Origin: Actinomycetes bacterium
GTDB taxonomy: Bacteria; Actinomycetota; Acidimicrobiia; Acidimicrobiales; Ilumatobacteraceae
Direction of reading: 5' to 3'
Assembly (NCBI GenBank): GCA_027491335.1
Contig: JAIXWJ010000023.1
Location: 1-33,343 of the forward strand
Length of the DNA: 33,343 nt
Below the pieces are notes generated by a model. The model searched no databases and was not told the DNA's origin. It worked only from the letters and a program-made list of their open reading frames with translations. Positions 1-30,711 of this stretch are shown piece after piece. The first letter of the stretch is position 1. Every line of letters begins with the position of its first letter. Made by a program: the position numbers and the translations under genes.

Positions 1-386
1 ACGTCGGAATTGACCAAGATGACGTCTTCCGGGTTGGTCAGTTCGAACGCCAGATTGCACGAACCGAGGAAGCCACCATTGGATCGGGGTCGGTGGACGT
101 CGACGCGATGACGCCACGAGCTTCGTGACTCATCCAAGTACTCGAAGAAGCGGCGGTCGGGCCCGTGATCATCGATGATGAGCACGCGCACATCGGTGGG
201 CGTGTGCCGAAGCACGGAATTCAGGCAGGCGATCGATTCGTCCGGTGCGTTGTAGACGGGGATGATGACCGTTGCACGTCCACCGATCATGTTGTCACCC
301 CGCTTGATGGCTTCGAGTGGGTCAAGTTCGGGGTTCACGAGCCACCACGGACGGGAACGAGCGAAGCTGCGACCAAGAAGACACAA
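1..386 (-). CDS. GT2-family glycosyltransferase, N-terminal part (runs off the left edge)
   Basis: Translation of the minus strand gives the start of a GT-A fold family 2 glycosyltransferase: a first beta strand with IIPVYN, the nucleotide-binding IDDHGPD, an NGGF segment, and LVNSDV, which is the DxD-type region, right at the window edge. The catalytic half lies outside. The frame is open back to a stop at 408-410. Possible starts are TTG at 386, GTG at 338 and ATG at 290. Plausible coding sequence (WWLVNPELDPLEAIKRGDN) lies ahead of the ATG, so I prefer an upstream start, but no good ribosome site decides it. It diverges from the methyltransferase gene and has the high GC of the wider locus (about 62-65% in two hand-counted lines), unlike its right-hand neighbours. 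The sugar and acceptor are unknown. Confidence 0.75.
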   Translation of the reverse strand, partial: MCLLGRSFARSRPWWLVNPELDPLEAIKRGDNMIGGRATVIIPVYNAPDESIACLNSVLRHTPTDVRVLIIDDHGPDRRFFEYLDESRSSWRHRVDVHRPRSNGGFLGSCNLAFELTNPEDVILVNSD

Positions 387-460
387 AGACGCCGCGAGGG
401 ATCGTGATTATTCTCCGACGTCACACGCATGGTTGACCGCTTTCGCAATACGACGTGTCG

Positions 461-466
461 TAAACT
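461..466 (+). promoter_or_regulatory. Candidate -10 element (TAAACT) for the methyltransferase-wzm-wzt cassette
   Basis: TAAACT fits the actinobacterial TAnnnT -10 pattern. It lies in the 408-489 divergent gap, 23 nt before the GTG at 490. A TTGACC at 433-438 is the only -35-like hexamer, but its 22-nt spacing is too long for a standard sigma-70 promoter, so the -35 is uncertain. AGGGA at 480-484 is the likely ribosome site. Confidence 0.4.
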
Positions 467-489
467 AACAGCCAACGATAGGGATTTTG

Positions 490-1392
490 GTGAAAATGAT
501 GCGCTGGAAGATGTCCGCCCCAACATTCGAGACTGATCGTCTTCAACCTTGGTTCAAGAGTGCCCCTTGGTCGGGCCATCGTCGTTTCGCATACGACCTC
601 ATGTTGAACCTCGAGCCATCGTTGACGGTCGAGCTCGGAAGTCACTTCGGAGTGTCTTTTTTCGCCATGAGTCAAGCCATGAAAGATCACGCGCTGTCGG
701 GTCGATTGGTTGCGATTGATACTTGGGAAGGTGATGAGCACGCCGGGTTCTATGGAAATGACGTTCTCCTTTCATTCGAAGATCTTCGCTCGAGTCTTTT
801 CGGAAACATCAATTCGGAGATCATGCGGATGCGATTCGATGAAGCAGTCGAATCTTTCGAAGATGGCTCGGTCGACGTGTTGCACATTGATGGCCTCCAC
901 ACGTACGAGGCGACGAAGGAGGATCACGAAACCTGGCAGTCGAAGTTGAAAGAAAACGGAGTCATCTTGTTTCACGACGTTGCCGAAGCCACGGGGTACG
1001 GAACTTCGTCGTATTGGAACGAGATTCGCGAGGCGGTCCCGAGCTTCTCTTTCCCTCATTCTTTCGGGCTGGGAGTCCTGTTCCCGAAAGGAGTCTCGCC
1101 GAAATGTGCGGACCTGGTCGATGGATCTTCACTGCTTCGTGAATGGTACGAATTGCGCTCGCGTTTGGACCTCGCTGAGCTTCAAGTTGTCGACGAGGCA
1201 GCGATGATCGATGATCGCGATGCTGCTATTCGATCGATGACGGCCATGATCGATGATCGTGATGCTGCTATTCGATCGATGACGGCCATGATCGATGATC
1301 GTGATGCTGCTATTCGATCAATGAAAGCCATGATCGATGATCGTGATTCACGGGATGGCCGGATCGAAGCATTGGTGAATCGCGACTCATGA
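490..1392 (+). CDS. Class I SAM-dependent methyltransferase with tandem-repeat helical tail
   Basis: Residues 1 to about 200 form a Rossmann methyltransferase of the Methyltransf_24 type common in polysaccharide loci. The SAM-binding strand is VELGSHFGVS (about 48-57), the acidic second strand is VAIDTWEGD, and the later motif is VDVLHIDGLHTYEATKED (about 128-145), followed by GVILFHDV. Residues from about 238 to 286 are three and a half copies of a 14-residue unit (AMIDDRDAAIRSMT), which is two heptads and should form a helix or coiled coil. I chose GTG at 490 because AGGGA sits 5 nt upstream. The adjacent TTG at 487 and in-frame ATGs at 499, 502 and 514 are alternatives. The gene overlaps the next one by ATGA. 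By context it probably methylates a sugar or cap on the exported glycan. The substrate is not visible in the sequence. Confidence 0.85.
   Translation: MKMMRWKMSAPTFETDRLQPWFKSAPWSGHRRFAYDLMLNLEPSLTVELGSHFGVSFFAMSQAMKDHALSGRLVAIDTWEGDEHAGFYGNDVLLSFEDLRSSLFGNINSEIMRMRFDEAVESFEDGSVDVLHIDGLHTYEATKEDHETWQSKLKENGVILFHDVAEATGYGTSSYWNEIREAVPSFSFPHSFGLGVLFPKGVSPKCADLVDGSSLLREWYELRSRLDLAELQVVDEAAMIDDRDAAIRSMTAMIDDRDAAIRSMTAMIDDRDAAIRSMKAMIDDRDSRDGRIEALVNRDS
1201..1347 (+). repeat. 42-bp in-frame tandem repeat, 3.5 copies
   Basis: Units run 1201-1242, 1243-1284 and 1285-1326, with a half unit at 1327-1347. Units 1 and 2 differ at 2 of 42 bases and units 2 and 3 at 3 of 42, so the expansion is recent or homogenised. 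Each unit encodes 14 residues, so copy-number change keeps the frame. It is coding sequence at the methyltransferase C-terminus, not a CRISPR array. Confidence 0.97.
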
Positions 1393-3935
1393 ATGGCAGG
1401 TTGCGTCGGGAGGTCGTTCGTGTCCACGCGATCTCTAGGGCAATCGCTCCTTTTCTCCCATCATCGCTGGTTCGGCTGCTTCGTTTCCTGAAGCGTGGAC
1501 TGACAGCCAACCGCGTGTTCCGATTCGTTGTCCGTCGCCCTCAGGCCGATCGTCGGAAACCTTCCGAAGATGTGACACGACTTTTCGACGTTGACTTCTA
1601 CCGGGAGCAGACCGGCTCGAGCGACGACAAGAAGTCCCTACTGGCTCACTACCGTCGTTTCGGCTGGCAAGCTGGGCTCGATCCCCATCCGTCTTTTGAT
1701 GTTCGTGGCTACCTGACTCGAGCTACGGCGCTGGGTGTCGCAGTGGTAGGGGACCCATTCGAGCATTACCTGGAGGATGGATGGAGGCTAGGGCTCGAGC
1801 CGAACGGACTTTTCGATGGCGAATGGTATTCGGTCAAGGTCGGCCTCCGAGACTCCTGCCCATTTGTTCATTATCTGGACCATGGTCAGTGGAGCGGAGT
1901 GCCCACGAGCGCCGCGATGGAGAAGGCCCTCTTACCCAGTCCGCGGACCCCGCGCAGATCCGATGCTCGGTCGTCGGTGATACCGTTCCCCGGACCCGAG
2001 ATTCGGCTTGTGACCCTCGATTTCTGGGACACCTTGGTCGTTCGCACTAGACCAGCCGATTCTGCGAAACTGGCGACAGCGAGACGAATCTCTCGAGAGC
2101 TCCGGACTTCAGTGACGGCTTTTGATCTCTTCGTTCGACGAGTTCGTATCGAAGCCGAACTCGCGGAGTCGAATGATCATGGCGAGTACCAGATTGCCGA
2201 AGTGATTGGGTTAATGCTTCAGACGCTTACGGGGAAAGTGGACCCCGAGCTCGTCGCGGAACTGGTGTCGGCAGAGGTTGAAGACGAGTGCCGTCACACC
2301 CAATTGAATCCGGAGGTTGCTCGATACCTGAGTGAACTACGTCGAGGATCCGGTGAACGCAAGATCGCGGTGCTGTCCGACTTCTATATGAATGGATCAG
2401 CTTTGCGAAGAATCCTCGAACATCATGGGGTCGAATGCGATGATTTGCATTTTGTCTCTTCGTGCGAGTTCGGGGCCTCGAAGCGCTTGGGAGGGCTCTA
2501 CGACGTGGCCCATCGCATCTTCGAGGTATCCCAGAGTGAGCACTTTCACGTTGGGGACAACGAATACTCGGACGTGGAGATGGCGAGAAGGCATGGGGTA
2601 CAAGCTCACCACGTGCTCGTTGAACGCGAACTACCCGGTCCGGGTGAGTTGTCCGAAGCCTGGTTCGCATCAAATCCGTTCGACGAGGGTTGTTCTCGGA
2701 TTGGATCCCTCTTGGCAGGGGATACGAAGAGGACACTTCCGACGAAACGCGCTCTTTTCGCAGGGTCGAGAAGTGCCTTTCTTCCGGTCGCACTCGTCTT
2801 CGCCGCGGCGCAGAGGGCCAGAGAGCGTGGACTCGATTGCGTCTTCTATGTGAGCCGGGAGGGAGCGTTTTTGAGCGAGTTGCATCGCCGTATCGGAGAT
2901 GAGCACCCGGATCTGAAATTCCCGACTGCAGTGCATCTGGAGGTCAGTAGGCGTTCGACCTTTGGAGCGTCGTTGTTGCGACTCGATGGTCCGAGCCTCG
3001 ACCGATTGTGGAGTCAATACCCGAATCAGTCGATTCGAGGACTGCTTTCCTCGCTTGGTTTGGATCCGGCGGACGTTGGTGATGGCGTTCGTCGCTTCGG
3101 GTTGGATCCGGACGAGTTGATTCACGACATTCGTTCGAGCGCGAGAGTGAGAGAGTTCCTCGCTGACAAGGCGGTGGGATCGACGATTATGGGCAACTTG
3201 GGAAATCAGCGCGAACTCCTCGCTCGGTACCTTCGTGACCGAGGCATGACCCAAGAGCAGGCGCTGGTAGTGGATCTCGGTTGGCGAGGGACCATTCAGG
3301 ACAACTTCGCGCACATCCTCAGTGATGTGCATTTTCATGGCGTCTACATGGGGCTGTTCCCGTATCTCAATAAGCAGCCGCTCAACGTTTCGAAGGAAGC
3401 GCTCGCATTCGATGGCAACCTCGGGCATTCTTTCGATCACGTGTCGCCGCCAGCCGTCCTCGAATCTCCGCTGACACCAAGCATCCCGTCTGCGGTGGGT
3501 TACATGGACCATCCAGACGGTCGTGTGTTGGTGGTGACGCAGGAGGAATTGGGGCGAGCGGACGAGCTGATTTTCGATTTTCAGGCTGGCGTGAGGGCAG
3601 CAGTCCCTTATCTCGTGGACCACTTCATTGCGAATGGCTACGACTTCGATCTCCTCTCGAAAGCATCCGAGAACTTTCTGAAGAGGTACTTCGTTGACCC
3701 CGATCCGGGTGTAGCAGACATCTGGTTTTCCAGTGCCCATGACGACACATTCGGGGCGTTGAATCTCTCGCCGTTTGGTAAACGATTCGATCCGTCGTTG
3801 ACCATCCGCGCCAACGGTGACCCTCTAAGGATTCCACATGCGGTGGAATCCGGTTGGCCACGCGGATACATGCGATGGTTGCCGGTGCATTCGCTCGTGG
3901 TGCTTTCTGAGTTGAGGTCCGAGCATGGCGAATGA
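1389..3935 (+). CDS. HAD-like (COG5610-type) protein with N-terminal FD..Y/HY..G repeats
   Basis: This is an 848-residue three-part protein. Residues 66-172 hold three modules of about 40 residues with FDxxxY, then HY, then GW/GQW and P. This module type is often attached to glycosyltransferases in polysaccharide loci. Residues from about 205 to 430 are a HAD fold: motif I TLDFWDTLV (nucleophile D211), motif II VLSDFYM (about 328-334), and motif IV HVGDNEYSDVEMA (about 385-397). In motif I the position two after the nucleophile is Trp, not the second Asp of DxD phosphatases, so phosphatase activity should not be assumed. From about 480 a conserved C-terminal domain starts at VFYVSREGAFL, as in COG5610 proteins. 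It overlaps the methyltransferase by ATGA and the next gene by 11 bp, so translation is probably coupled. The exact reaction is unknown. Confidence 0.75.
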   Translation: MNGRLRREVVRVHAISRAIAPFLPSSLVRLLRFLKRGLTANRVFRFVVRRPQADRRKPSEDVTRLFDVDFYREQTGSSDDKKSLLAHYRRFGWQAGLDPHPSFDVRGYLTRATALGVAVVGDPFEHYLEDGWRLGLEPNGLFDGEWYSVKVGLRDSCPFVHYLDHGQWSGVPTSAAMEKALLPSPRTPRRSDARSSVIPFPGPEIRLVTLDFWDTLVVRTRPADSAKLATARRISRELRTSVTAFDLFVRRVRIEAELAESNDHGEYQIAEVIGLMLQTLTGKVDPELVAELVSAEVEDECRHTQLNPEVARYLSELRRGSGERKIAVLSDFYMNGSALRRILEHHGVECDDLHFVSSCEFGASKRLGGLYDVAHRIFEVSQSEHFHVGDNEYSDVEMARRHGVQAHHVLVERELPGPGELSEAWFASNPFDEGCSRIGSLLAGDTKRTLPTKRALFAGSRSAFLPVALVFAAAQRARERGLDCVFYVSREGAFLSELHRRIGDEHPDLKFPTAVHLEVSRRSTFGASLLRLDGPSLDRLWSQYPNQSIRGLLSSLGLDPADVGDGVRRFGLDPDELIHDIRSSARVREFLADKAVGSTIMGNLGNQRELLARYLRDRGMTQEQALVVDLGWRGTIQDNFAHILSDVHFHGVYMGLFPYLNKQPLNVSKEALAFDGNLGHSFDHVSPPAVLESPLTPSIPSAVGYMDHPDGRVLVVTQEELGRADELIFDFQAGVRAAVPYLVDHFIANGYDFDLLSKASENFLKRYFVDPDPGVADIWFSSAHDDTFGALNLSPFGKRFDPSLTIRANGDPLRIPHAVESGWPRGYMRWLPVHSLVVLSELRSEHGE

Positions 3936-5076
3936 AATCGTCGATTCTTTCGGCCATCAGAAGTACTCCAGGTATTCGACGCGGGTGGACTTCATGGAGC
4001 AACCTCGTTCGGTTGTGTTCTTGGTCGGTTCCACGGCAATTAGCGGAGGAACCTTCGTCATTCTTCAGCATGCGCTGGCCCTCAAAGAGCTGGGATGGAA
4101 AGTGACGTTGGCGTGCCAGATGATCGACCATGGGAGTGATCCGTGGCATCCCGCCCTCGACGAGTTGAATCTCATTCGCATCGAAGATGTTTCCGACCTG
4201 TCGTTCGACGTTGCAGTCGCGACATGGTGGCGAACCGTTCTCGAAATTCATCGAGTTAATGCACGTCAGTACGTGTATTTCGTGCAGTCCATCGAGTCGC
4301 GCTTTTACGGAGATGATCCGATTCTGCAATCGATCATCGATCTGGTGGATGAGACCTACAAGCTCGACCTTCTGGTCATCACGATCGCCGGATGGATTCA
4401 GATGTTCCTTTACTCGGAGTACGGCGCCCCGTCGCTTCTCGTGAGGAATGGAATTCGAAAAGATTTGTTCGCCTCTGTGGGACCACGGTTCGCCCCGCCG
4501 CTTGAGGAAGGGATCCGAGTGCTAGTTGAAGGACCCGTCGGTGTACCGATGAAGAATGTCGATGCCGCGGTTCGCTTGGCTCGTGCCGGTGGTGCGAACG
4601 AGGTCTGGCTGGTTTCGGGTAACGCTGGTGAGTCGAATCATCTGGTCGATCGATTCTTCCGCACCGTTCGTGTCGAAGACATGGCGATGGTGTACCGCTC
4701 CTGCGACGTGCTGCTGAAGTTGAGTCGCGTCGAAGGCATGTTCGGTCCACCTTTGGAGATGTTCCATTGCGGTGGAACGGTTATCTCCTATGACGTGACT
4801 GGTTTCGAGGAGTATGTCGTCGACGGCGCCAACGCGTTGGTGGTGCCCATGGACGATGAGCCCGGTGTCATTGACGCAGTGCGAAGGCTGGCGACGGATC
4901 GTTCGCTCCTTGCACGTCTCAAGCATGGTGCGCTTCTGACTGCGGCCGAGTGGATGGGCTGGCAGAAGTCCTCGAGAGAATTCGCGGGCTATATGACGGC
5001 GATCTCGAATCTGCCCCAACGTGATTACTCCCTCACTCGGCGACGATCAGCCGAATTGGCCGCGCGTCTGCCGTAA
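3925..5076 (+). CDS. GT4-type (GT-B fold) glycosyltransferase
   Basis: A 383-residue retaining GT-B glycosyltransferase, resembling rhamnosyltransferase-like GT4 proteins. The N-terminal half has an ISGGTFVILQHALAL loop and helix. The C-terminal half has the donor-binding EGMFGPPLE motif (E-x7-E, residues 270-278), followed by GGTVISYDVTGFEE. The start ATG lies inside the preceding gene (11-bp overlap), with GAGG about 7 nt upstream. The wzm gene begins 12 bp after the stop, so it belongs to the same transcript. It probably adds a residue to the polymer that Wzm/Wzt exports. Donor and acceptor cannot be read from the sequence. Confidence 0.85.
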   Translation: MANEIVDSFGHQKYSRYSTRVDFMEQPRSVVFLVGSTAISGGTFVILQHALALKELGWKVTLACQMIDHGSDPWHPALDELNLIRIEDVSDLSFDVAVATWWRTVLEIHRVNARQYVYFVQSIESRFYGDDPILQSIIDLVDETYKLDLLVITIAGWIQMFLYSEYGAPSLLVRNGIRKDLFASVGPRFAPPLEEGIRVLVEGPVGVPMKNVDAAVRLARAGGANEVWLVSGNAGESNHLVDRFFRTVRVEDMAMVYRSCDVLLKLSRVEGMFGPPLEMFHCGGTVISYDVTGFEEYVVDGANALVVPMDDEPGVIDAVRRLATDRSLLARLKHGALLTAAEWMGWQKSSREFAGYMTAISNLPQRDYSLTRRRSAELAARLP

Positions 5077-5088
5077 AGTATTCGACTG

Positions 5089-5895
5089 GTGAAGTTGTTC
5101 CTCAGAGGTCGTGGCCGGCGTAGGCAGGTTCAGTTGACGTTCAACCTCGCCCGTCGACAAGTTCTTCAGCGCTATCGAGAATCCATGTTCGGATTGGTGT
5201 GGACCCTGATGACGCCGATGATTCTTCTACTGATCTACGGATTCGTTTTCAGCCAGGTCTTCAAATCCAGATGGGTCGGCGAAGTCCAGGATGAGCCGTA
5301 TGCCCTTCTGATTTTCTCTGGTCTCATGATCTTCAACTTCTTGTCGGAGACTCTCAATGGGTCCAGTTCTTTGGTCCAGTCAAATGCACTCCTCGTCAAG
5401 CGAACCACGGTTTCGCCTCGGTTGTTGCCCTACGCACTGACGTTGTCGACCTTGTTCACTTTTGTGATCAATTCCTTGGCGTTCTTGATCATGTACGTCT
5501 GGCTGAAGGGCGAATTGCCCTCTCCTTTCGCTCTCCAGATTTACGTCCTGGTCCTCGCCGTTGCGATCTTCGCCACCGGCGTCGGGATGATCATCTCTGC
5601 CGTTTCTGCGTACTTCCGTGACGTTCAGCAAATCGTTCCTCTGCTCACCACCGCACTCCTATTCTTCTCACCGGTCTTCTTCCCCTTGGAGTCGTTGCCG
5701 GATGGCATTGAGAAGGTGGTCCGAACGGTCAATCCACTTTCTTATCCGATCGAACAGAGCAAAAACGTTCTGTTTCTGGACCGCTGGCTGAGCATCTCGG
5801 GCTTGGCCCAATACTCGATCGCCGCTTTGATTGTGTGGTGGATCGGATCCCGAGTTTTCAAGGTGGCCGCGAGAGGATTCGCTGATGTCGTCTGA
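5089..5895 (+). CDS. wzm: ABC-2 type polysaccharide exporter, membrane subunit Wzm
   Basis: A 268-residue integral membrane protein of the ABC2_membrane family, the usual length for Wzm. It has a short basic N-terminus, an amphipathic LARRQVLQRYRES segment leading into the first span, and about six hydrophobic segments (for example MTPMILLLIYGFVF and LLTTALLFFSPVFFPLE). The periplasm-side hairpin before the last span, FFSPVFFPLESLPDG, is typical of this family. The start is GTG at 5089, with TAAAGT at 5074-5079 as a possible extra -10. It overlaps wzt by 11 bp. With Wzt it should flip a lipid-linked glycan across the cytoplasmic membrane. Confidence 0.93.
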   Translation: MKLFLRGRGRRRQVQLTFNLARRQVLQRYRESMFGLVWTLMTPMILLLIYGFVFSQVFKSRWVGEVQDEPYALLIFSGLMIFNFLSETLNGSSSLVQSNALLVKRTTVSPRLLPYALTLSTLFTFVINSLAFLIMYVWLKGELPSPFALQIYVLVLAVAIFATGVGMIISAVSAYFRDVQQIVPLLTTALLFFSPVFFPLESLPDGIEKVVRTVNPLSYPIEQSKNVLFLDRWLSISGLAQYSIAALIVWWIGSRVFKVAARGFADVV

Positions 5896-7228
5896 GCCGA
5901 TTCTTTCCGTTCGCAATCTTTCGAAGACATACCGTGTTTTCGGTCGGCCTCATGAGCGGGTTTTCCAAGCCATTTCCGATCGTCGAGGTTCTGGTCGCCT
6001 TCATTGCTTCGAGGTTCCAGCGGTAAAAGATGTTTCCTTCTCCTTGAACACCGGTGAAAGCATCAGCATCATCGGCCGTAATGGCAGCGGAAAGTCGACC
6101 CTTCTCGAGATGATCGTCGGAACTCTCCAACCGACTTCGGGTTCCGTGACGCGTCCGGAGCGAATCTCGGCGCTATTGGAACTTGGTGCTGGGTTCAATC
6201 CCGACTTCACGGGACGAGAGAACTTCAGAATGGCCGCTTCCATTCATGGCTTGCATCAGAGCGAAATCGACGCGATCGAAGAGAAGGTCGAACGCTTTGC
6301 CGAAATCGGTCGGTTTATCGACGAACCTGTGCGTACATATTCGTCGGGAATGTACGTTCGCCTTGCGTTCGCATCTGCGGTTCACGTGAAGCCGGACCTC
6401 TTGATCGTCGATGAAGCTCTGGCGGTCGGTGACATCTTCTTTCAGCAGAAGTGTTTCGAATTCCTGGACTCCAACCTACGGGACACACCGAAATTGATCG
6501 TCACCCATGACCTGGCGAGTGCTGTCAGGCTCAGCTCCCGCTGCATCGTGCTCGAGAACGGGCACGTCGTCTTCGATGGCGAACCACTCGAGGCTGTTGA
6601 GATTTATACGGCTGCGAGTTTGCGGGCAAACTCGCAGCGCCGGATCGAGGAAGCCGAGTTGCTCGAGACATCTAATGCCGTCGTTGAGAGTGGGGGAGAT
6701 GATGAGGCGAATGTGGTGTCAGAGTCGACGAGTTTGACGACTTCGCTGACATCGGGAGTTGGGTTGAGTTCGGCCAGCGAATTGCTGCAGATTCGAGAAA
6801 TCGCGGTGATCGTGAACGGGAAGACGACCACTGCCGAGCCAGGTATTCCGGTGGTTGTTTCGCATGCTGACGACGTGAGAATCGACTTTCTTGCGACCAT
6901 TGGTACGAACATTTCTGAGCCGGTGTGGGGGTACACCATGCGTGATCGCATGAGCACACCGGTGTTCGGCGAAAACACCATTGGGTGTGCCATCTCGGTC
7001 GATCGCATGGAACCCGGTTCGTATCGTATGTCCTTGGGATTTCTCTGGCCGGAAGTACAACAAGGTGAGTACACGATGACGATCGGTGTTGGAGATGGTC
7101 GCCATTCGCTTCATCACGAGATCGTCGCATGGGTTCAGAGTGTGCTGCAGTTCGCGGTGGTTCCAAAGCGTGATGTTCATGGCCTATTCAACAACGATCT
7201 GACATCATTCAGCTTCAGGCCCGAGTAG
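5885..7228 (+). CDS. wzt: ABC exporter ATPase Wzt with C-terminal carbohydrate-binding domain
   Basis: The 447-residue start at ATG 5885 overlaps wzm by 11 bp. An in-frame extension upstream to 5831 only reads wzm in another frame. The nucleotide-binding domain (1 to about 245) has Walker A GRNGSGKST (64-72), signature SSGMYVR, Walker B LLIVDE (172-177) and the H-loop His208. Residues from about 255 to 298 are an acidic Ser/Thr-rich linker. Residues from about 300 to 447 match the Wzt C-terminal beta-sandwich (WGYTMRDRMSTPVFGENT, then MEPGSYRMSLGF). In E. coli O8/O9a-type systems this domain binds the modified non-reducing end of the finished glycan and licenses export. Mycobacterial galactan exporters have a short Wzt without it. 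Its presence next to a methyltransferase suggests recognition of a methylated cap. Confidence 0.94.
   Translation: MSSEPILSVRNLSKTYRVFGRPHERVFQAISDRRGSGRLHCFEVPAVKDVSFSLNTGESISIIGRNGSGKSTLLEMIVGTLQPTSGSVTRPERISALLELGAGFNPDFTGRENFRMAASIHGLHQSEIDAIEEKVERFAEIGRFIDEPVRTYSSGMYVRLAFASAVHVKPDLLIVDEALAVGDIFFQQKCFEFLDSNLRDTPKLIVTHDLASAVRLSSRCIVLENGHVVFDGEPLEAVEIYTAASLRANSQRRIEEAELLETSNAVVESGGDDEANVVSESTSLTTSLTSGVGLSSASELLQIREIAVIVNGKTTTAEPGIPVVVSHADDVRIDFLATIGTNISEPVWGYTMRDRMSTPVFGENTIGCAISVDRMEPGSYRMSLGFLWPEVQQGEYTMTIGVGDGRHSLHHEIVAWVQSVLQFAVVPKRDVHGLFNNDLTSFSFRPE
6611..6638. repeat. Perfect 13-bp-arm palindrome inside wzt
   Basis: GCTGCGAGTTTGC (6611-6623) and GCAAACTCGCAGC (6626-6638) are exact reverse complements separated by GG. 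They encode residues 243-251 of Wzt, at the junction between the ATPase domain and the linker. The role is unknown: RNA hairpin, recombination scar or recognition site. Confidence 0.95.
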
Positions 7229-7237
7229 GAATTCCTG

Positions 7238-8272
7238 ATGGGTGTCACGTGCATCACCGTCACCTACGGACCCTCACCAACGTTGTCACGAGCGGTCGAG
7301 GCGCTCGTGCGTCATTCCGGTGAAGTGTCTCAGGACATCATCGTCGTCACCCAACCGGACGACGAGGGACGCCGTGAGGACGTGTCACACCTTCTCGATC
7401 GTGTGCGGCACATCGAGTTGAACGAGAACCTGGGTTTCGGGCCCGCCAACAATCTGGCGGTCGCGGATTGCGACACCGAGTTCGTCGCGTTCGTGAATCC
7501 CGATCTCGTCGTCACCGAAGGTTGGCTGAATCCGTTGCTGGAAGCGCTCGGGGATCCGCTGGTGGCGATCGCGGCACCGCCGCTTCTGGACACCGACGGA
7601 TATCTGACCGAAGCCGGTCAGGCGATCTTCTCCGATGGGGGAAGCGAAGCGATGGGCGGTGAGCGTTGGCTCGGCGGATACGACTCGGTCATGTTCGACC
7701 GTGACGTGGACTATGCCTCGGCCGCCTGTTGGTCGATGCGTCGAGACACGTTTTCGGCTTTGGGGGGATTCGACGCCCGCTACGCACCGGCCTACTTCGA
7801 GGACAGTGATCTGGCCATGACGGCATGGTCGCGAGGCTTGGTGACACGGTTGGTGACGGATCGGCCGGTTGTGCATCATCACGAGGGGGCCAGCGCCACA
7901 CGGGTGAAGCTGGCCGAAGCGTCCCGCGGGAAGTTCGTCGACAAATGGAGTCGCGAACTCGCCGCGCAGCCCAGCCGTCGAGACGTGGGGGAGGACAGCC
8001 GAGCCGTTCGTGATCATCGTGCGCCGCGTCGCATCGCGCACGTGTTCGATGGCGGGACGGATTCCATCCAGATGGAGCGAGCGGCCGAGACCGCGGCGAA
8101 AGAGGCGGCTGAAAACCCCAGAGATCGCGTGACGCTGGTCCTTCCACGAGGCGCCACGGTGGGACGGCTGCGTCGCCAACATCGGTTCAGCGGCTTGGAG
8201 ATCGTCGACGTGGAGGCAGTGCGGCGCGTGGACGTCTCGTGGGCCACCGAGGTGAGGACCGTGGGTCGATGA
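7238..8272 (+). CDS. GT2-family glycosyltransferase (rhamnosyltransferase-like)
   Basis: A 344-residue GT-A enzyme. Visible motifs are TCITVTYGPS at the N-terminus, NENLGFGPANN, the DxD-region FVNPDLVV (about 87-94), GGFDARYAPAYFEDSDLAM (ED motif, about 175-193) and VVHHHEGAS. These are usual for GT2 enzymes that add rhamnose or galactofuranose in cell-surface loci. About 100 residues after the catalytic domain are charged and not recognisable. AGGA sits 7 nt before the ATG. This gene marks the return to about 62% GC after wzt (10-nt gap). Its stop overlaps the next start by ATGA. Sugar specificity is unknown. Confidence 0.88.
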   Translation: MGVTCITVTYGPSPTLSRAVEALVRHSGEVSQDIIVVTQPDDEGRREDVSHLLDRVRHIELNENLGFGPANNLAVADCDTEFVAFVNPDLVVTEGWLNPLLEALGDPLVAIAAPPLLDTDGYLTEAGQAIFSDGGSEAMGGERWLGGYDSVMFDRDVDYASAACWSMRRDTFSALGGFDARYAPAYFEDSDLAMTAWSRGLVTRLVTDRPVVHHHEGASATRVKLAEASRGKFVDKWSRELAAQPSRRDVGEDSRAVRDHRAPRRIAHVFDGGTDSIQMERAAETAAKEAAENPRDRVTLVLPRGATVGRLRRQHRFSGLEIVDVEAVRRVDVSWATEVRTVGR

Positions 8273-9789
8273 GTCGCCGTCTTCGCTGGGCTCTGGTGTT
8301 GATTCTCGGAGTGGTGGGTTACGCGATCCGCGGGTACTTGCTGGGCACCAAGTTCGGTGAACTCAACGCCGACGAGGCTTTCACTGGATTGCAGGCGATG
8401 GAGATCGCCAAGGGTGATCTTCCCATCGTGTACCGCGGAATCGGATACACGGGAATCATCGACAGCTACGTGTTCGCTCCGTTTACGATGTTGTTCGGGG
8501 CTCACGTGGTCCCGTTGAAGCTTCTGACCAGTCTGTGGTGGATCCTGGCCTCCATCGTGATGTTCCATGTGGTGCGATCGATTCGGCGCGACCTGAAGTG
8601 CGATCATCCCGATCGTTGGGCTTGGCTCGCGGCCGGGATGTTGTGGCTCACACCCGGGGCGATGATGGTGGTGTCCGTGCGCGCGTGGGAGGCCTACGGT
8701 CTGCTTTTGTTGGTCACCTTCGCCTCGGCCCACATGGTGCGACGCGTCGTGTTGGGAGAGGCGAATGTGCGTCGTGACGTGCTGTTGGCAGGCGCGCTGC
8801 TGGGTCTCGCTTTCTACTTGCATCCCATGACCTTGGCGTCCGTTCTTCCGATCGCGTTGTTGCCCTGCTGGAAGTACCGAAGCCGATTTCGTGACTGGTG
8901 GGCACCGGCTGTTGGCGCCGCCGTTTTCGTCAATGTTCCGTTCCTCGTGTGGAACGTGAAAAACGACTGGCTCAGCTTGGCCCAGCCTTCACCGCCGATG
9001 AACAGCACGTGGGATCGACTCTCGAGCTTCTTCACGGGTCTGTTGCCCCGAGCCTTCGGCATGATGAACACCGACGGCTCCTGGCTGTGGGGCGCGGCCT
9101 CGCTCATCCTTTACCTGATCCTGCTGGTGCTCGTGGCACGCGGAATCTTGGTGCTCGTGCGGAAGGTGCCCGGAGGGTTGGTGCTGGCGCTCCCGGCCGT
9201 TCTGTGCTGGCCGATCCTGTCGCTGTTCAACAACATGTGGTTCGTCGAAGATGGCCGTTACTCAAGTGTGGGTTTCCCGTTTCTCATCGTGGCGCTGTCG
9301 ATCGGACTCGCCGACCTCGCGGGTCGACTTGGATCGAACCTCACGAGTCGGACGACATTCGCGATGGCTTTGGTCGTGTGGGTGGCAGTGCTGGTCGTGC
9401 CGTGGGTGAAGGTGAACGCGGGTCCACGAGTCGACGACCCGAACGAACGCGTTCGCGTGTTGGTCGAGATCCTCGAGGACGAGGGTTTTCGCTACGCGGC
9501 GGGCAACTACTGGCTCATGAACCCCATCGAATATCAAAGCAATCAACGCATACACGTGGCGGTCGCCGGGCACCCATGGGGTGTCAGATTTCCGTGGCGT
9601 CCGAAGTTGCCGTGGGGAGTTTCCTTCGCTCAGCGACAGACCGAGGTGCTCTCGCAGGGACCGCTCGACGTTGCGTACGCGTTCCTCGCGGGCGATGAAC
9701 GCGTCGAGGTGCTGCCACTTCCGGTGGACCAATACGAACGCCGCGATGTGATGGGGGCGGTGTTGTATCTTCCAATGGTGCCCGAATGA
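8269..9789 (+). CDS. GT-C fold polytopic glycosyltransferase (ArnT/PMT-like, GT39/83-type)
   Basis: A 506-residue polytopic membrane protein with roughly ten or more hydrophobic spans. The first extracytoplasmic loop carries NADEA (33-37), the acidic motif of GT-C enzymes, which use polyprenyl-phosphate sugars as donors. A later VEDGRYSSVGFPF segment also fits this fold. The last 100 residues are a soluble extracytoplasmic tail. I used ATG 8269, which overlaps the previous stop as ATGA; an in-frame start at 8239 would lie well inside the upstream gene. A DPM-like donor synthase follows 27 bp downstream, a natural pairing. The acceptor could be the exported glycan or a protein. Confidence 0.82.
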   Translation: MSRRLRWALVLILGVVGYAIRGYLLGTKFGELNADEAFTGLQAMEIAKGDLPIVYRGIGYTGIIDSYVFAPFTMLFGAHVVPLKLLTSLWWILASIVMFHVVRSIRRDLKCDHPDRWAWLAAGMLWLTPGAMMVVSVRAWEAYGLLLLVTFASAHMVRRVVLGEANVRRDVLLAGALLGLAFYLHPMTLASVLPIALLPCWKYRSRFRDWWAPAVGAAVFVNVPFLVWNVKNDWLSLAQPSPPMNSTWDRLSSFFTGLLPRAFGMMNTDGSWLWGAASLILYLILLVLVARGILVLVRKVPGGLVLALPAVLCWPILSLFNNMWFVEDGRYSSVGFPFLIVALSIGLADLAGRLGSNLTSRTTFAMALVVWVAVLVVPWVKVNAGPRVDDPNERVRVLVEILEDEGFRYAAGNYWLMNPIEYQSNQRIHVAVAGHPWGVRFPWRPKLPWGVSFAQRQTEVLSQGPLDVAYAFLAGDERVEVLPLPVDQYERRDVMGAVLYLPMVPE

Positions 9790-9816
9790 GTCCGTGGCGC
9801 GAGTGGAGTCGACGAA

Positions 9817-10539
9817 ATGTGGAACGGTAAGCGCCTGGCAGTGATCCTGCCCACGTACAACGAGCACCTATCCATCGCCGACTGCATTCGAGGCTTCGAG
9901 GCACTGGGAATCGTCGACGAGATTCTCGTGGTCAACAACAACGCTCATCCGGACACGTCGGCTCAGGTGGCACCCACCACCGCTCGCGAGGTGTTGGAGA
10001 CCACGCAAGGATATGGGGCGGCCATCAAGCGGGGTTTCGCGGAAACTCGATCATTCGATCTGGTGTGCGTGTGCGAACCCGATGGCACCTTCGATCCCGC
10101 GGATCTGCTGAAACTGTTGCCCTACACCCACGACGTCGACGTGGTCTTCGGCTCTCGCACCACTCAGGCCTTGATTCTCTCCGGAGCGAACATGGGGTGG
10201 TTCCTGAAGTGGGGCAATTGGGCGGTCGCCAAGTTGGTCGAAGTCCTGTACAACACGGTGTTCCTGTCCGACGTGGGCTGCACCTACCGTGTGATTCATC
10301 GTGAGTCGCTCGATCAGCTCGAACCCAAGTTCGCCATCGATGGTTCGTCGTTCGGGCTGGAGATGATGCTCCACGTGGCGCGCGAGCGAATGTCGTTCGT
10401 TCAAGTGCCCGTGAAGTATCAGGAACGTGTGGGTGAAAGTTCGGTCACGGGAAGCTTCTGGAAGGCCTGGACCCTGGGTTGGCAGATGATTCTTCTGACG
10501 TTGCGAATGCGCTTCCGGCGCGCGTCGGTCAGCGCTTGA
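9817..10539 (+). CDS. Polyprenyl-phosphate glycosyltransferase, DPM/DPG-like GT2
   Basis: A 240-residue GT2 enzyme of the DPM_DPG-synthase type. It opens with LAVILPTYNE, then ILVVNNN, TQGYGAAIKRGF, CEPDGTFDP (DxD region), VDVVFGSRT, and a late VPVKYQERVGESSVTG. It has no C-terminal membrane spans, unlike DPMs fused to GtrA-like domains, though a hydrophobic helix near the C-terminus may dock on the membrane. Its likely role is to make a polyprenyl-phosphate sugar on the inner face of the membrane for the GT-C enzyme just upstream. GGAG lies 8 nt before the ATG. Its 3' end overlaps the convergent methyltransferase gene by 11 bp. Confidence 0.85.
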   Translation: MWNGKRLAVILPTYNEHLSIADCIRGFEALGIVDEILVVNNNAHPDTSAQVAPTTAREVLETTQGYGAAIKRGFAETRSFDLVCVCEPDGTFDPADLLKLLPYTHDVDVVFGSRTTQALILSGANMGWFLKWGNWAVAKLVEVLYNTVFLSDVGCTYRVIHRESLDQLEPKFAIDGSSFGLEMMLHVARERMSFVQVPVKYQERVGESSVTGSFWKAWTLGWQMILLTLRMRFRRASVSA

Positions 10540-11389
10540 CGCATCGAAGCGTCACGAACTGATGCTCGGGGCGAAAGCCGTAAATCTTCGACATGTAAAT
10601 GTCCACCACGGGTCGAAGCTTGGACGTGGGTGCGTGGTCGATCATCGACGGAACATCGAAGCCGTCCACGTCGGGCTCGGGGCAGGCACTGACACCCCGT
10701 AGAACCTTGGCGAACTCCTCCATGAGGAGAACCTCCACCTCGAAACCCATCGACTCCATCGCCGTGACCAAATCCCATCCGAATCGGAAGTGCACCGGTG
10801 TGTTGTCTCCATGGAATTCGGGTTCGGTGGGACGCGAGGTTCGTCCCTGTTGCAACGGAACCTGCAAGTACATGGTTCCTCCCGGCGTCAGAACCCGGTG
10901 GATCTCCCGCAACGCCCGATCGGTGTCGGGGACGTGTTCCAGAACGTGCGGGGTGAGCAGAACGTCGACGGATGCGTCGGGAAGTGCGATGTCTTGCAGA
11001 TCGATACGGATGTCGCCTCGGTGCGCCGACAGGTCGTAATCGCTCGATGTGTATCGGAACAACGAGCGCATCATGCGGCGGTACTCGCGACCGAGCCGCG
11101 GGCTCGTCTCCAGGACCCGCTGGTTCTCGTCATGGGGCGAGCACGTGAGGAAACAGAACAGTAGGAACCGATCGCGAGCGACGCTGCCGCACCGGGGGCA
11201 AGTGGCACTCTCGACGTGCTCGGTGCCGAGGAACTCCGCTCCGGCCCAATGGCAGATGTTGCACACCGCCATGTGACCATCCGCCACGCCCGAGGGAACG
11301 GTCCATGGCATGTCGACGCCGTGCCACCACCGTGCTTGTCGTCTCCACCTCGAACCCCAAACGCCGGACACGAACCGAGACAACTTCAT
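10529..11389 (-). CDS. SAM-dependent methyltransferase with N-terminal zinc ribbon
   Basis: A 286-residue protein. Cys43, Cys46, Cys64 and Cys67 (CNIC and CPRC) form a small zinc ribbon. It is followed by a class I methyltransferase of the Methyltransf_11 type: RVLETSPRLG in place of the usual glycine-rich loop, DIRIDLQDIALPDASVD, then HVLEHVPDTDRALREIHRVL and GGTMYLQVPL. The ATG at 11389 gives the natural N-terminus; the longer open frame to 11704 runs into the plus-strand genes. TAGGGT lies 8 nt ahead of the ATG, so the transcript may be leaderless or have a very short leader. It sits alone on the minus strand between two plus-strand glycosyltransferase blocks. A sugar or glycolipid substrate is likely but not shown. 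Confidence 0.85.
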   Translation of the reverse strand: MKLSRFVSGVWGSRWRRQARWWHGVDMPWTVPSGVADGHMAVCNICHWAGAEFLGTEHVESATCPRCGSVARDRFLLFCFLTCSPHDENQRVLETSPRLGREYRRMMRSLFRYTSSDYDLSAHRGDIRIDLQDIALPDASVDVLLTPHVLEHVPDTDRALREIHRVLTPGGTMYLQVPLQQGRTSRPTEPEFHGDNTPVHFRFGWDLVTAMESMGFEVEVLLMEEFAKVLRGVSACPEPDVDGFDVPSMIDHAPTSKLRPVVDIYMSKIYGFRPEHQFVTLRCVKR

Positions 11390-11397
11390 CGTCGCAA

Positions 11398-11403
11398 ACC
11401 CTA
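11398..11403 (-). promoter_or_regulatory. Candidate -10 (TAGGGT) for the zinc-ribbon methyltransferase
   Basis: TAGGGT on the minus strand ends 8 nt before the ATG at 11389, the distance expected for a leaderless or near-leaderless actinobacterial transcript. No convincing -35 was seen. Confidence 0.45.
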
Positions 11404-11455
11404 GGTGCCACCGGCGTTGGTGGTGGGGACTCCGAAGGTGCCGATCGTCTCGGGG

Positions 11456-11461
11456 TAGGCT
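11456..11461 (+). promoter_or_regulatory. Candidate leaderless -10 (TAGGCT) for the 11468 operon
   Basis: TAGGCT is followed by 6 nt and then the GTG at 11468, with no Shine-Dalgarno sequence. This is the leaderless arrangement seen again before 26094, 28100 and 30725. Confidence 0.55.
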
Positions 11462-11467
11462 TGCCTC

Positions 11468-11761
11468 GTGCGAGTGGTCAAAGCGCTCCTGACGAGAATC
11501 ACCGGCCGCGACGTGCGTGCTCTGCGGGCCGAGGTGGCCGAGATCCGCAATCAGGTGCAGGTCATCAACGACGTCGTTCAGTCCTTGAATCACGACGTGC
11601 GTTCGGGAGCCGATCGTTCGTTGCCGCTGTTCCTGGGCTACGCCGAACGGGTCCGGTTGGACGCCGACACGGCGGTGGGGGCCGTGCAGTCGATCGAGCG
11701 CCAAATCGCCCGTCTGGAGGCCCTGATCGACGAAGCCTCCACACCCGCGAAACGGAGCTGA
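11468..11761 (+). CDS. Small coiled-coil protein of unknown function
   Basis: A 97-residue protein that I do not recognise. It has a basic N-terminus (VVKALLTRITGRD), then two heptad-rich helices separated by a DRSLPLFLGYAERV stretch: LRAEVAEIRNQVQVINDVVQSL and AVGAVQSIERQIARLEALIDEA. There is no membrane span or signal peptide. It is preceded by a leaderless-type promoter and followed 5 bp later by the double glycosyltransferase gene, so the two are almost certainly cotranscribed. A scaffold or oligomerisation partner for the glycosyltransferases is a guess from context only. The frame is intact, with high-GC codon use like its neighbours. Confidence 0.75.
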   Translation: MRVVKALLTRITGRDVRALRAEVAEIRNQVQVINDVVQSLNHDVRSGADRSLPLFLGYAERVRLDADTAVGAVQSIERQIARLEALIDEASTPAKRS

Positions 11762-11766
11762 GGCCG

Positions 11767-14130: not shown

Positions 14131-14137
14131 GAACGCC

Positions 14138-15544
14138 ATGACTTCGCCGTCGCCCTTCGTTCGCATCGTCGTGTTGTCGTTCGATGGCGGGCAGATGACC
14201 ATCGACTGCATCGATTCGCTGCTTCTCACCGCATGGCCCGCCGATGGTTACGAGGTCGTGATGGTCGACAACGGCTCGCTCGACGACGTGACGGCGCGAG
14301 TGCGACGCGATTATCCGATGGTGCGCGTGTTGGAACCGTTGCGCAATCTGGGTTTCGCCGGAGGATGCAACCTCGGCCTGTCCGCCACCCACGATTCGGA
14401 AGGACACGAACTGCGCGCGTACGAGTTCGCGGCCTTGATCAACAACGACGCCACCGTGGAGCCACGTTGGCTCGAGGGCTTGTTGTCCGGTTTCGATGCC
14501 GGAAGCGATGTCGGTGCGGTGAGCGCAAAGATGCTCTTCGCCGATCGATTCACCGGGATCGACGTCTCGGTGTCCGAAACGACGGTGGCCGGCGGGGGAG
14601 ACGACCGAACGATCGGGGTGTGCGTGTCCGCGGTTCGCATCGACGGTCGACGCGAGGACCAGCGACTGCAATTCGACGAGGGATTCCACGGCCCGGTGGC
14701 CCATGACCCTTCGCGCGACGAGGAGTTCGCTCGTTGGAGCAAGAAGGCCGGTTCGCTTCGCATCGCCGAGACTCGTCCGGACCCCGCGATCACGCAGACC
14801 GTGTCGTTGCGTTTGTCGGCCGAGACGCCGCGGCTGGTGACCCTGACCACCGACATCGACGAGGTCTCGGTGGAAATCGGCGGCGGTTACTCGGACAAAG
14901 AGCCCGTGTTCACGTGGGTGGACGTGCGGATCGGATCCGACGTGTTCGACGTGGTGAACAACGTGGGTTCCAATCTGTACGAACGCGGTTTCGGTGGCGA
15001 TCGCGGCTTTCTCGAGCGTGATCGCGGACAATACGACCAGGCCGCCGAGGTTTTTGCCTGGTGCGGTGGTGCGGTGTTGTTGCGAGCCGAGTACCTCGAA
15101 TCGGTGGGGCTGTTCGACGAGCGCCTGTTCCTGTACTACGAGGACACCGACTTGTCGTGGCGGGGTCGACTGCAGGGTTGGCGGTACATCTACACACCCG
15201 AAGCGGTCGTTCGGCATCGTCACGCCCAGTCGTCGGGGGTGGGAAGCGACGTCTTTCGTTTCCACACCGAGCGCAACAGGCTGTTGGTTCTGGCGAAGAA
15301 CGCTCCGATGTGGCTCGCCGCACGGGCCGGATTGGGCGAGGTCAAGCGAACGCTCGTGCTGAACGTGCGACACCTGGTGTTGCGTCCACTCACCCTACGC
15401 ATGCCGTCGCGTCCGGAGGCTCGTCATCGTCGGCGAGTGCTGAAGAGTTACGTGAGTCTTCTTCCCGCGATGCTTCGGGATCGTTGGATGATGGACCGAC
15501 ACGTGTCGCGCGGATCCCTGATGCGATGGGAAGTTTCCAAGTGA
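14138..15544 (+). CDS. GT2-family glycosyltransferase with a ~120-residue insertion
   Basis: A 468-residue GT2 enzyme. The N-terminal half has VVLSFDGGQ, VMVDNGS (42-48), RNLGFAGGCN and LINNDATVEPRW (DxD region, about 100-110). The catalytic second half resumes at FAWCGGAVLL (about 306-315), GLFDERLFLYYEDTDLSWRG (about 324-343) and VRHRHAQSSG. Between them, residues from about 140 to 268 look like a beta-rich insertion (QTVSLRLSAETPRLVTLTTD) not found in ordinary rhamnosyltransferase-type GT2 proteins. It follows the double GT-B gene by 7 bp, and its stop overlaps the next start as GTGA. Likely part of glycan backbone or side-chain synthesis. Confidence 0.87.
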   Translation: MTSPSPFVRIVVLSFDGGQMTIDCIDSLLLTAWPADGYEVVMVDNGSLDDVTARVRRDYPMVRVLEPLRNLGFAGGCNLGLSATHDSEGHELRAYEFAALINNDATVEPRWLEGLLSGFDAGSDVGAVSAKMLFADRFTGIDVSVSETTVAGGGDDRTIGVCVSAVRIDGRREDQRLQFDEGFHGPVAHDPSRDEEFARWSKKAGSLRIAETRPDPAITQTVSLRLSAETPRLVTLTTDIDEVSVEIGGGYSDKEPVFTWVDVRIGSDVFDVVNNVGSNLYERGFGGDRGFLERDRGQYDQAAEVFAWCGGAVLLRAEYLESVGLFDERLFLYYEDTDLSWRGRLQGWRYIYTPEAVVRHRHAQSSGVGSDVFRFHTERNRLLVLAKNAPMWLAARAGLGEVKRTLVLNVRHLVLRPLTLRMPSRPEARHRRRVLKSYVSLLPAMLRDRWMMDRHVSRGSLMRWEVSK

Positions 15545-16707: not shown

Positions 16708-16719
16708 CGGTGTCCGTCA
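16705..16719. terminator. Palindrome containing both convergent stop codons
   Basis: TGACGG, loop TGT, then CCGTCA. The left TGA is the stop of the plus-strand GT4 and the right TCA is the stop of the minus-strand secreted protein. A 6-bp stem without a T-tract could be a weak two-way terminator. Function not certain. Confidence 0.4.
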
Positions 16720-28100: not shown

Positions 28101-28106
28101 GGGGAG

Positions 28107-28112
28107 AACCTA
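28107..28112 (-). promoter_or_regulatory. Candidate leaderless -10 (TAGGTT) for argJ
   Basis: Minus-strand TAGGTT is followed by 6 nt (CTCCCC) and the ATG at 28100. It lies in the short gap just after the dapD stop, so argJ could be uncoupled from the upstream genes. Confidence 0.5.
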
Positions 28113-28117
28113 CCGAT

Positions 28118-29044: not shown

Positions 29045-29050
29045 GTGTGG

Positions 29051-29056
29051 CTCCTT
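29051..29056 (-). promoter_or_regulatory. Ribosome binding site of dapD (AAGGAG)
   Basis: Minus-strand AAGGAG with a 6-nt spacer to the ATG at 29044. It is the strongest Shine-Dalgarno site in the window and fixes the dapD start over the longer frame. Confidence 0.85.
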
Positions 29057-29066
29057 CGTGGGCGAC

Positions 29067-30605: not shown

Positions 30606-30711
30606 AAGGGAGAGACCGTACTTGCTCGGGGTGTGGGGCGAGGAGTCAATAGTCACGGACGCAACGAAGGATCGCGTCGCCAAGTCACCCGACCCGACCG
30701 ACGCCGACCGG

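Follow-up and report, generated by a model that had tools for sequence, protein, structure and literature searches.

In Klebsiella pneumoniae O4 and O7, chains that depend on an ABC transporter are built by a PRPP-dependent two-domain ribofuranosyltransferase together with other glycosyltransferases, the terminator sits on a coiled-coil protein, and cap-binding modules have been described on transporters of this kind (PMC11231755). A ribofuranosyltransferase of Thermobacillus composti is mentioned elsewhere (PMC10299916). In E. coli, the WbdD terminator is a methyltransferase (O8) or a kinase-methyltransferase (O9a), and the O9a protein, whose C-terminal part is a coiled coil, recruits the polymerase (PMC3482155). 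For the S-layer glycan of the Gram-positive Geobacillus stearothermophilus, the N-terminal methyltransferase of WsaE is held to cap the chain by 2-O-methylation, binding of the methylated product by Wzt is predicted, and such clusters are noted to be low in GC (PMC2943079). The cap-binding domain of Aquifex aeolicus WzmWzt binds 3-O-methyl-mannose, with a tryptophan forming a lid over the methyl group (PMC9445017).

The locus compared here with these systems lies in a window (the whole stretch of DNA analyzed, 33,343 nucleotides) from a draft genome of the Ilumatobacteraceae. It holds a five-gene cassette with a predicted division of labor like that of Klebsiella O4/O7. Termination in Klebsiella, however, is by a Kdo transferase in O4 and by a methyltransferase-kinase in O7, whereas the window has a Methyltransf_24 protein with a putative short tandem-repeat coil and no kinase match in Pfam. 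WbdD and the window protein share a methyltransferase terminator, putative here, but no kinase domain was found in the window protein, and no WbdD chain occurs among the PDB matches of the methyltransferase (up to E 1) or of its family profile (up to 0.001). WsaE/Wzm/Wzt, compared by function, resembles the window in a proposed methyl cap and its predicted reading by Wzt, but WsaE carries glycosyltransferases on the same protein and makes a rhamnan. The closest solved cap-binding domain to that of the window Wzt is the Aquifex one, whose lid tryptophan aligns with a tryptophan of the window protein.

It appears that this bacterium swapped its own sugar-chain exporter for a foreign five-gene package, which probably makes, terminates and secretes a different surface sugar chain, in which case such machinery is exchangeable as one block. 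The reading we favor, with moderate confidence, is that the cassette is a horizontally acquired, ABC-transporter-dependent glycan module that replaced the resident wzm/wzt in place and carries its own mechanism for building, capping and exporting a chain.

Composition and gene content of the cassette

In a likelihood fit with two breakpoints, the edges of a low-GC block fall at 400 and 7240, in line with a sequence-only reading that had placed the shift near 408 and 7230, low inside and high outside. GC content is 0.552 over 408–7230 and 0.639 from 7231 to the window end; the left flank (1–407) is also under average, at 0.597. The sliding-window check that this reading had proposed gave a nonuniform genome: sampled GC was 0.640, and 0/1415 windows of 6.8 kb were at or below 0.552 (minimum 0.604), the sample covering 387 kb out of 2.52 Mb, in 20 stretches on five contigs picked for ABC2_membrane matches and hence not random. 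A chance dip in GC is ruled out by the same count. GC3 in gene order is 0.576, 0.622, 0.651, 0.695, and 0.616, compared with 0.736–0.862 in 12 frames outside the cassette taken as genes, a set from which three frames within 27154–30743 were dropped as probable antisense. Among 239 background genes delivered by a crude gene caller, values as low were found in three for the methyltransferase, 17 for the HAD-like gene, 34 for GT4, 71 for wzm, and 13 for wzt. The outlier is the block as a whole, and individual genes are weaker outliers.

All five genes lie on the forward strand. A Methyltransf_24 methyltransferase (487–1392; Pfam, 8.5e-26), the putative terminator and cap writer with a probable C-terminal repeat coil, is followed by a ribofuranosyltransferase-like protein (1389–3935), a GT4 glycosyltransferase proposed as its repeat-unit partner (3925–5076; Pfam Glyco_trans_1_4, 4.8e-12), a Wzm permease of the cassette type (5089–5895; ABC2_membrane, 8.4e-26), and, adjoining it, a Wzt ATPase (5882–7228; ABC_tran, 2.8e-23) with a predicted C-terminal cap-binding domain at about 6836–7228 (Wzt_C, 53.4 bits against a cut-off of 30.4). 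The genes had earlier been listed as methyltransferase, HAD-like protein, GT4, wzm and wzt, nearly all overlapping. Of these names, "HAD-like" was incomplete; overlap is found in three of the four neighboring pairs (methyltransferase/HAD, HAD/GT4 and, if wzt starts at 5882, wzm/wzt), and a gap of 12 nt separates GT4 from wzm.

The second protein resembles PRPP-type ribofuranosyltransferases, and that activity is predicted. Chain A of PDB 7shg, which we take to be the Thermobacillus composti enzyme, aligns to residues 204–719 (E 8.5e-27), Bcs3 matches at E 1.1e-8, and the Pfam HAD hydrolase score of 26.3 bits falls just below the 26.4 cut-off. The aligned region comprises a HAD phosphatase (about 204–410) and a phosphoribosyltransferase-like part (to about 720); relative to 7shg, the window protein has an extra N-terminal extension of ~200 residues. 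Across 11 sequences, D211/D214/T215, D331, and G389/D390/D395 are invariant and S330 and K365 nearly so, residues of the HAD phosphatase catalytic motifs. The counterpart in Paenibacillus sp. 2.1 matches 7shg with 591 bits over chain residues 35–643 of 648. Three Paenibacillaceae ribosyltransferases end in C-terminal coil repeats, which are absent from the window protein.

In addition to cap and export functions, the cassette thus probably supplies enzymes for polymerizing the chain, and the earlier view of it as a cap-and-export unit only gives way, since its largest gene resembles a ribofuranosyltransferase and a GT4 is carried as well. Because both are aboard, the cassette may build its own chain. 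In the mechanism we propose, resident enzymes would supply initiation and adaptor sugars, and GT4 and the ribofuranosyltransferase would build a ribofuranose-containing chain, the latter adding ribose-5-phosphate from PRPP and then stripping the phosphate. The coil-spaced methyltransferase would O-methylate the chain end, halting growth; the C-terminal domain of Wzt would recognize the methyl cap, and Wzm/Wzt would export the completed chain.

Among solved domains, that of Aquifex is the nearest to the family profile of the cap domain (E 3e-12). A tryptophan aligned to the Aquifex lid residue (position by manual count) is present in 42/45 Wzt rows, residents included, and was dropped as evidence because it does not discriminate. 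A Wzt motif picks ten of 62 rows but is descriptive, having been built from those same ten; L114, a member of the Wzt clade described below, is without it.

Probable replacement at the resident exporter site

Homology to congeners restarts at 7244, six bases inside the next gene, and on the left it ends at 269, within a minus-strand GT2-GT4 glycosyltransferase gene that is cut by the contig edge (3–290) and probably starts at 290. The exchanged stretch is about 270–7243; the left junction falls at about 270–290, and the intergenic region 291–486 separates the resident gene from the divergently oriented cassette. The closest congener, G631, aligns at window 1–269 (72% identity to 144–412 of its locus L067) and at 7244–15511 (colinear, 80% nucleotide identity). 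Between these flanks it has 2.13 kb, its wzm plus wzt, where the window has 7.0 kb.

A divergent resident wzm/wzt stands directly before the same gene in all seven congeners with contigs that extend to the site (those of G622, G634, and G636 stop short and are outside this count). On the right, three forward-strand genes (7238–10539), identified by synteny with G631 and by Pfam as GT2, a protein without a Pfam match, and GT2, encode proteins 74, 84, and 92% identical to those of G631 in the same order. The left flank is, by synteny, resident too: the rest of the GT2-GT4 gene sits on another contig of this genome, C44 (GC 0.589, under average), where three genes are 80–85% identical to genes left of the site in G637, the flank on the cassette contig being about 270 bp long and its continuation on C44 deduced from gene order.

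Cassette Wzm is 24–26% identical to the congeners' Wzm, and the congeners' Wzt form one clade. Cassette DNA was not found in 23/23 other genomes of the genus, save for two that each have a short match (64 and 60 bp); seven of the 24 genus genomes, counting this one, reach a completeness of 90% or more with contamination of 5% or less, and the source genome is a fragmented draft of 76 contigs. No resident Wzm was found at 1e-8 in stretches covering all seven other ABC2_membrane places of this genome. Wzt_C has one match each in 12/24 genus genomes; in this genome that match is the foreign Wzt, and a search of this genome found no second Wzt_C protein. The comparison with close relatives that the sequence-only reading had suggested therefore points to replacement, with resident wzm/wzt at the site and cassette DNA absent. 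Its claim that termination, recognition and export were acquired together also holds up, given a single low-GC block at the congeners' wzm/wzt site and the recurrence of the set elsewhere.

An ordinary integrative element was rejected: none of the five proteins of the cassette matches an integrase in Pfam, the window contains no tRNA, and the longest repeats common to the flanks (direct 8, inverted 9) are the same as in shuffles. The locus offers a natural experiment, in which a foreign exporter and terminator module sits at one defined place and the unreplaced state is kept in close relatives.

Recurrence of the module in other phyla

The set of methyltransferase (MT), ribosyltransferase (PRT), GT4, Wzm and Wzt recurs in three Paenibacillaceae and one Proteobacteria MAG, which links an export module that recurs to a ribofuranosyltransferase whose structure is solved. 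At 1e-10, eight of the nine sister loci in the MT clade have a match to the HAD protein, the exception being a 3.8-kb contig, and so does one of the 71 other loci, L140, where the match is confined to the N-terminal repeats; relaxing the threshold to 1e-6 adds L105, again through the N-terminal repeats alone, and L114, with a weak match in the HAD part. A GT4 44–48% identical to that of the cassette is present in 5/80 related loci, and a WsaF-like GT4 occurs in two relatives of the module. Extra GT2 genes adjoin the module in Cohnella sp. OV330 and P. glacialis. In 9/9 sister loci wzt ends between −35 and +16 nt relative to the start of MT, but even a range of −60 to +150 nt takes in only 19/45 loci overall. 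Gene order is wzm wzt MT PRT GT4 in L080, L082, and L083, PRT GT4 wzm wzt MT in L085, and MT PRT GT4 wzm wzt in the window. These orders are mutual cyclic permutations, which might hint at a circular intermediate; the hint is weakened because, with wzm-wzt and PRT-GT4 held fixed, chance would by our estimate give such a pattern in about one case in four.

In quick trees with SH-aLRT support only and long branches that include the window rows, the methyltransferase falls in a cross-phylum clade of 10 rows (SH-aLRT 98) and Wzt in one of 11 rows (SH-aLRT 100) that consists of the MT-clade loci plus L114 (Wzt tree, 50/62 rows; NBD and CTD trees, 45 rows). Wzm lies outside the clade common to these two and conflicts with both, in a clade test whose group was chosen after the trees were viewed and which left out 6/44 rows; a constraint uniting only the window, L085, L093, and L098 as one Wzm group was not rejected (p 0.21). 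The loci with which the ribosyltransferase groups differ from those of GT4. Phylogenies had been proposed as a check for all five proteins. None of the four covered here (methyltransferase, ribosyltransferase, Wzm, and Wzt) groups with host-order relatives, but by these trees the five are without one common deep history. In the order sample (248 genomes per search) no cassette relative exceeds 48% identity, and among relatives at about 20–54% identity no near source was found that could be the donor.

Alternative explanations

A rather unlikely competitor, the graft of the sequence-only reading or a hybrid, holds that the cassette supplies cap, recognition and export, perhaps with one sugar, and that resident glycosyltransferases build the main chain. 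A hybrid chain is possible because resident glycosyltransferase genes follow the cassette directly, still colinear with G631, and the genome has no other Wzt_C protein that was found for exporting a resident chain. Further, the GT2 genes beside the module in the two Paenibacillaceae mean that the five genes may be too few to make a chain, and they shifted our confidence from an autonomous chain toward this arrangement. Against it, the cassette has its own ribofuranosyltransferase-like protein and GT4, the same division as in the Klebsiella O4 polymerase, and in the 20-kb locus of Paenibacillus sp. 2.1, where Pfam was run on part of the genes, no relative of the window's other glycosyltransferases was found at 1e-3.

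It is very improbable that assembly or binning falsely joined a foreign fragment to this contig: the many contigs of the draft, the short left flank and the contig break inside the GT2-GT4 gene would allow for it, but two false joins would be needed, each beside a gene start and together flanking the resident wzm/wzt site, and the genome would be left without any Wzt_C match. Least probable of all is a native block, with a low GC merely typical of glycan loci and congeners that changed instead, which the weak GC3 signal of single genes such as wzm and GT4 and the under-average GC of the left flank and C44 would suit, but which is rejected because the cassette is missing in congeners and its Wzt, methyltransferase and ribosyltransferase group with other phyla, and which is further opposed by the single clade of the congeners' Wzt, their common wzm/wzt layout, the absence of comparably low background windows, and the lack of closer relatives in the order sample.

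The putative coil repeat

Returning to the acquired module, a 42-bp tandem repeat in the methyltransferase gene (1204–1347, forward strand; 3.4 copies, 96% matches, 14-residue units MIDDRDAAIRSMTA) is the sole TRF array in the window at score 40. The heptad contrast of the methyltransferase tail is modest, equalled by 51/2000 shuffles; the tail of the family profile matches a phage tail needle protein, and the single methyltransferase has one weak match in the PDB. One 14-residue coil repeat was found on both methyltransferases and ribosyltransferases of the module. A search of open-licence literature (titles and abstract starts) found no description of the module or of the shared repeat.

A tentative and somewhat doubtful idea is that this coil serves as a matched, module-specific docking and ruler tag on terminator and ribosyltransferase, passed between these unrelated enzymes, that its copy number, changing by slippage of the 42-bp repeat, sets the time of capping, and that methyltransferase and Wzt travel across phyla as a locked pair while Wzm is exchanged. 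The related loci form a series of terminators with differing coil lengths, and the idea of a coiled-coil ruler, which comes from enterobacteria, becomes testable in other phyla, Gram-positives included. In whole-tail scores, which rise with copy number, the window coil is closer to methyltransferase tails (those of L084, L080, and L086) than to ribosyltransferase tails; a unit-level comparison of the repeat (L084 left out) favors the ribosyltransferases.

Replacement of a resident export gene pair

The sequence-only reading had taken five genes, encoding a methyltransferase (487-1392), a ribosyltransferase that it called a HAD-like protein (1389-3935), a GT4 (3925-5076), Wzm (5089-5895) and Wzt (5882-7228), to be an imported low-GC block, and composition bears out both the block and its edges. 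A two-breakpoint likelihood fit placed the edges at 400-7240, with GC of 0.552 inside compared with 0.640 in the own-genome background (387 kb on five contigs, picked for ABC2_membrane hits), and 0/1415 background windows of block size had GC as low. GC3 ranged from 0.576 to 0.695 across the cassette genes and from 0.736 to 0.862 in 12 outside frames; singly the five are modest outliers, with 3, 17, 34, 71, and 13 of 239 background genes (crude gene calls) equally low. Pfam matches within the cassette were Methyltransf_24, GT4, ABC2_membrane, and ABC_tran with Wzt_C, and a HAD match fell slightly below the cut-off. Elsewhere in the window, DTRxGxG-centered repeats, seen by eye only, are common to two proteins, 16717-18825 (-) and 22940-26035 (+).

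The cassette is an in-place replacement. Within a genus sample of 24 genomes, own included (only seven at least 90% complete with contamination of at most 5%), relatives of the second gene past the right edge of the block occur in 11, own included; the site was fetched from the ten others, and the contig was long enough in seven. In all seven, divergently transcribed wzm and wzt directly precede the relative of window gene 7238, and the left neighbor of wzm is a GT2 gene in three (G631, G635, and G637) and a different gene in the remainder. The closest relative, G631, aligns with window positions 1-269 at 72% and 7244-15511 at 80%; these flanks enclose 2.13 kb carrying wzm and wzt in G631 and 6.97 kb carrying the cassette in the window. 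Cassette and resident (genus-native) proteins are about 35% identical for Wzt and 24%-26% for Wzm. Cassette DNA was absent from all 23 other genus genomes, except for 64-bp and 60-bp matches in two. A Wzt_C match occurs in 12/24 genus genomes, one apiece, that of the own genome being the foreign cassette copy. A search at 1e-8 for the resident Wzm gave no match in own-genome stretches that take in each of the seven other ABC2_membrane places. To the left, the flank runs on into another contig of the genome, C44, where three genes are 80%-85% identical to genes left of the site in G637; the GT2-GT4 gene is split by the gap between the end of C44 and the start of contig C75, with about 110 codons missing.

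Two features of the resident flank were also observed. In congener G630 (locus L068, 7357-9847), the genes corresponding to 7238 and 8239 of the window seem broken into several frames. To the right of the third resident gene is a resident methyltransferase (Methyltransf_11; window 10529-11704, -) that has a relative in five of the ten fetched congeners and might cap the resident chain.

Related loci and the history of the cassette

Related loci were collected by a genome_contigs scan with a five-row methyltransferase alignment, which confirmed at least 554 places, of which the best 80 were kept. Among these 80, many with short flanks, matches at 1e-10 numbered 41 for wzt, 33 for wzm, nine for HAD, and five for GT4, and the full five-gene set was found in Paenibacillus sp. 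2.1, Cohnella sp. OV330, Paenibacillus glacialis, and a Proteobacteria MAG. That termination, recognition, and export arrived together, as proposed from sequence, is upheld, as the cassette takes the place of resident wzm/wzt and its gene set recurs elsewhere. In Paenibacillus sp. 2.1, genes of the set have GC of 0.33-0.36 (locus mean 0.43), an epimerase gene lies to the left, and a Mutator-family transposase gene (locus L080, 15524-16780) lies to the right, possibly a trace of the set's mobility. In Cohnella sp. OV330 and P. glacialis low GC extends rightward past the set, and GT2 genes adjoin. In three further loci (L084, L093, and L098) another GT4 sits between methyltransferase and ribosyltransferase; in the two scanned, L084 and L093, it is WsaF-like.

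Judged from quick-method trees with SH-aLRT support only, the cassette is present here as a single block yet is itself a mosaic, because Wzm departs from the grouping of methyltransferase and Wzt, and because ribosyltransferase and GT4 group with different loci. The window methyltransferase falls in a 10-member clade (support 98; 85-row tree) and Wzt in an 11-member clade (support 100; 50-row tree) that adds only locus L114. The Wzt ATPase part alone keeps the clade (support 97); with the cap domain alone the window is in no starred set, and the group still lies on one side of a branch from the residents. Holding nine members together for Wzm, a group named after the trees had been seen, was rejected (AU p 3e-40), and the window Wzm lies within a mainly Proteobacteria set with Planctomycetota (support 95). 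The ribosyltransferase groups with L084, L093, and L098 (support 95) and the GT4 with the Proteobacteria MAG locus L085 and Paenibacillaceae (support 91, in a tree of eight rows only). Own-order methyltransferases (L024-L027), ribosyltransferase relatives (support 99), and Wzt relatives were all placed away from the window. The methyltransferase, Wzt, and Wzm of a locus titled Bacillus subtilis SK7B5 all group with Stenotrophomonas, which suggests that this contig is contaminating or mislabeled.

That glycan gene blocks can be exchanged is well established, and the cassette is therefore a variant of a known phenomenon. Such exchange is mentioned in parts of PMC2943079 and PMC11231755.

Predicted chain, cap, and export

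Over residues 204-719, the 848-residue HAD-like protein matches 7shg, a ribofuranosyl transferase of solved structure (E 8.5e-27); its match to the Bcs3 polymerase is weaker. The Paenibacillus sp. 2.1 counterpart matches nearly the whole 7shg chain (591 bits). In enzymes of this type, according to sections of PMC10299916 and PMC11231755, one domain transfers ribofuranose-5-phosphate from PRPP and the other takes the phosphate off. The window protein retains the HAD motif residues and a VDxGWxGTIQ stretch almost unchanged. The closest solved relative of the Wzt C-terminal domain family is an Aquifex domain with demonstrated 3-O-methyl-mannose binding (PMC9445017, in part).

As described in portions of PMC11231755, the Klebsiella O4/O7 ribofuranosyltransferase acts with other glycosyltransferases, contact being supported by two-hybrid data, and a coiled-coil protein that serves as a ruler carries the terminator. 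For the Geobacillus S-layer glycan, the N-terminal methyltransferase of WsaE is regarded as the capping enzyme and Wzt is predicted to bind the glycan (PMC2943079, in part); WbdD of E. coli O9a is covered in part of PMC3482155. From the Klebsiella and Geobacillus systems, and beyond the observed gene resemblances, replacement, and co-occurrence, we infer that the chain would contain ribofuranose, that methylation would cap it, and that Wzt would read the methyl cap before export of the capped chain. Resident adaptor enzymes would be used, and the coil would act as the ruler. Two parts of the sequence-only reading go further than the evidence: a cap-only role, since the cassette also holds the 7shg-like ribosyltransferase and a GT4, and a graft onto resident glycosyltransferases, which may or may not contribute to the same chain.

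The N-terminal 200 codons of 1389-3935, ahead of the ribosyltransferase part, had no Pfam match and carry FD..Y......HYL..G...G..P repeats, which also occur in other glycan-locus proteins (by match, L140 16788-17540; by eye, L025 4203-5237 and L027 9776-14518). Relatives of the window ribosyltransferase at 1e-20 were present in 18 plasmid records, including at least seven from Pseudomonas and at least six from Citrobacter, with 26%-30% identity among the 15 matches listed.

A coil repeat on two enzymes

Most worth following is a coil repeat specific to this module and shared by two unrelated enzymes. The C-terminal end of the methyltransferase contains a 42-bp tandem repeat (3.4 copies, 96% matches) coding 14-residue units, the only array detected in the window, and several of the best 80 of at least 554 loci have related 42- or 84-bp arrays after the methyltransferase. 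An unexpected finding was that the ribosyltransferases of the three Paenibacillaceae loci end with a nearly identical 14-residue unit. The window tail matches nine other frames at E < 1e-5, six methyltransferases and three ribosyltransferases, all of this module, with no further matches at that threshold across the fetched loci (9968 open frames); the own genome has no second copy of it (one match, E 0.08). Compared unit by unit, the window is nearest to the Paenibacillaceae ribosyltransferase units (mean 8.6-8.9/14 identical), with 4.5-6.0/14 for those methyltransferase units accessible to the pattern. When whole tails are scored, three methyltransferase tails outrank the ribosyltransferase tails.
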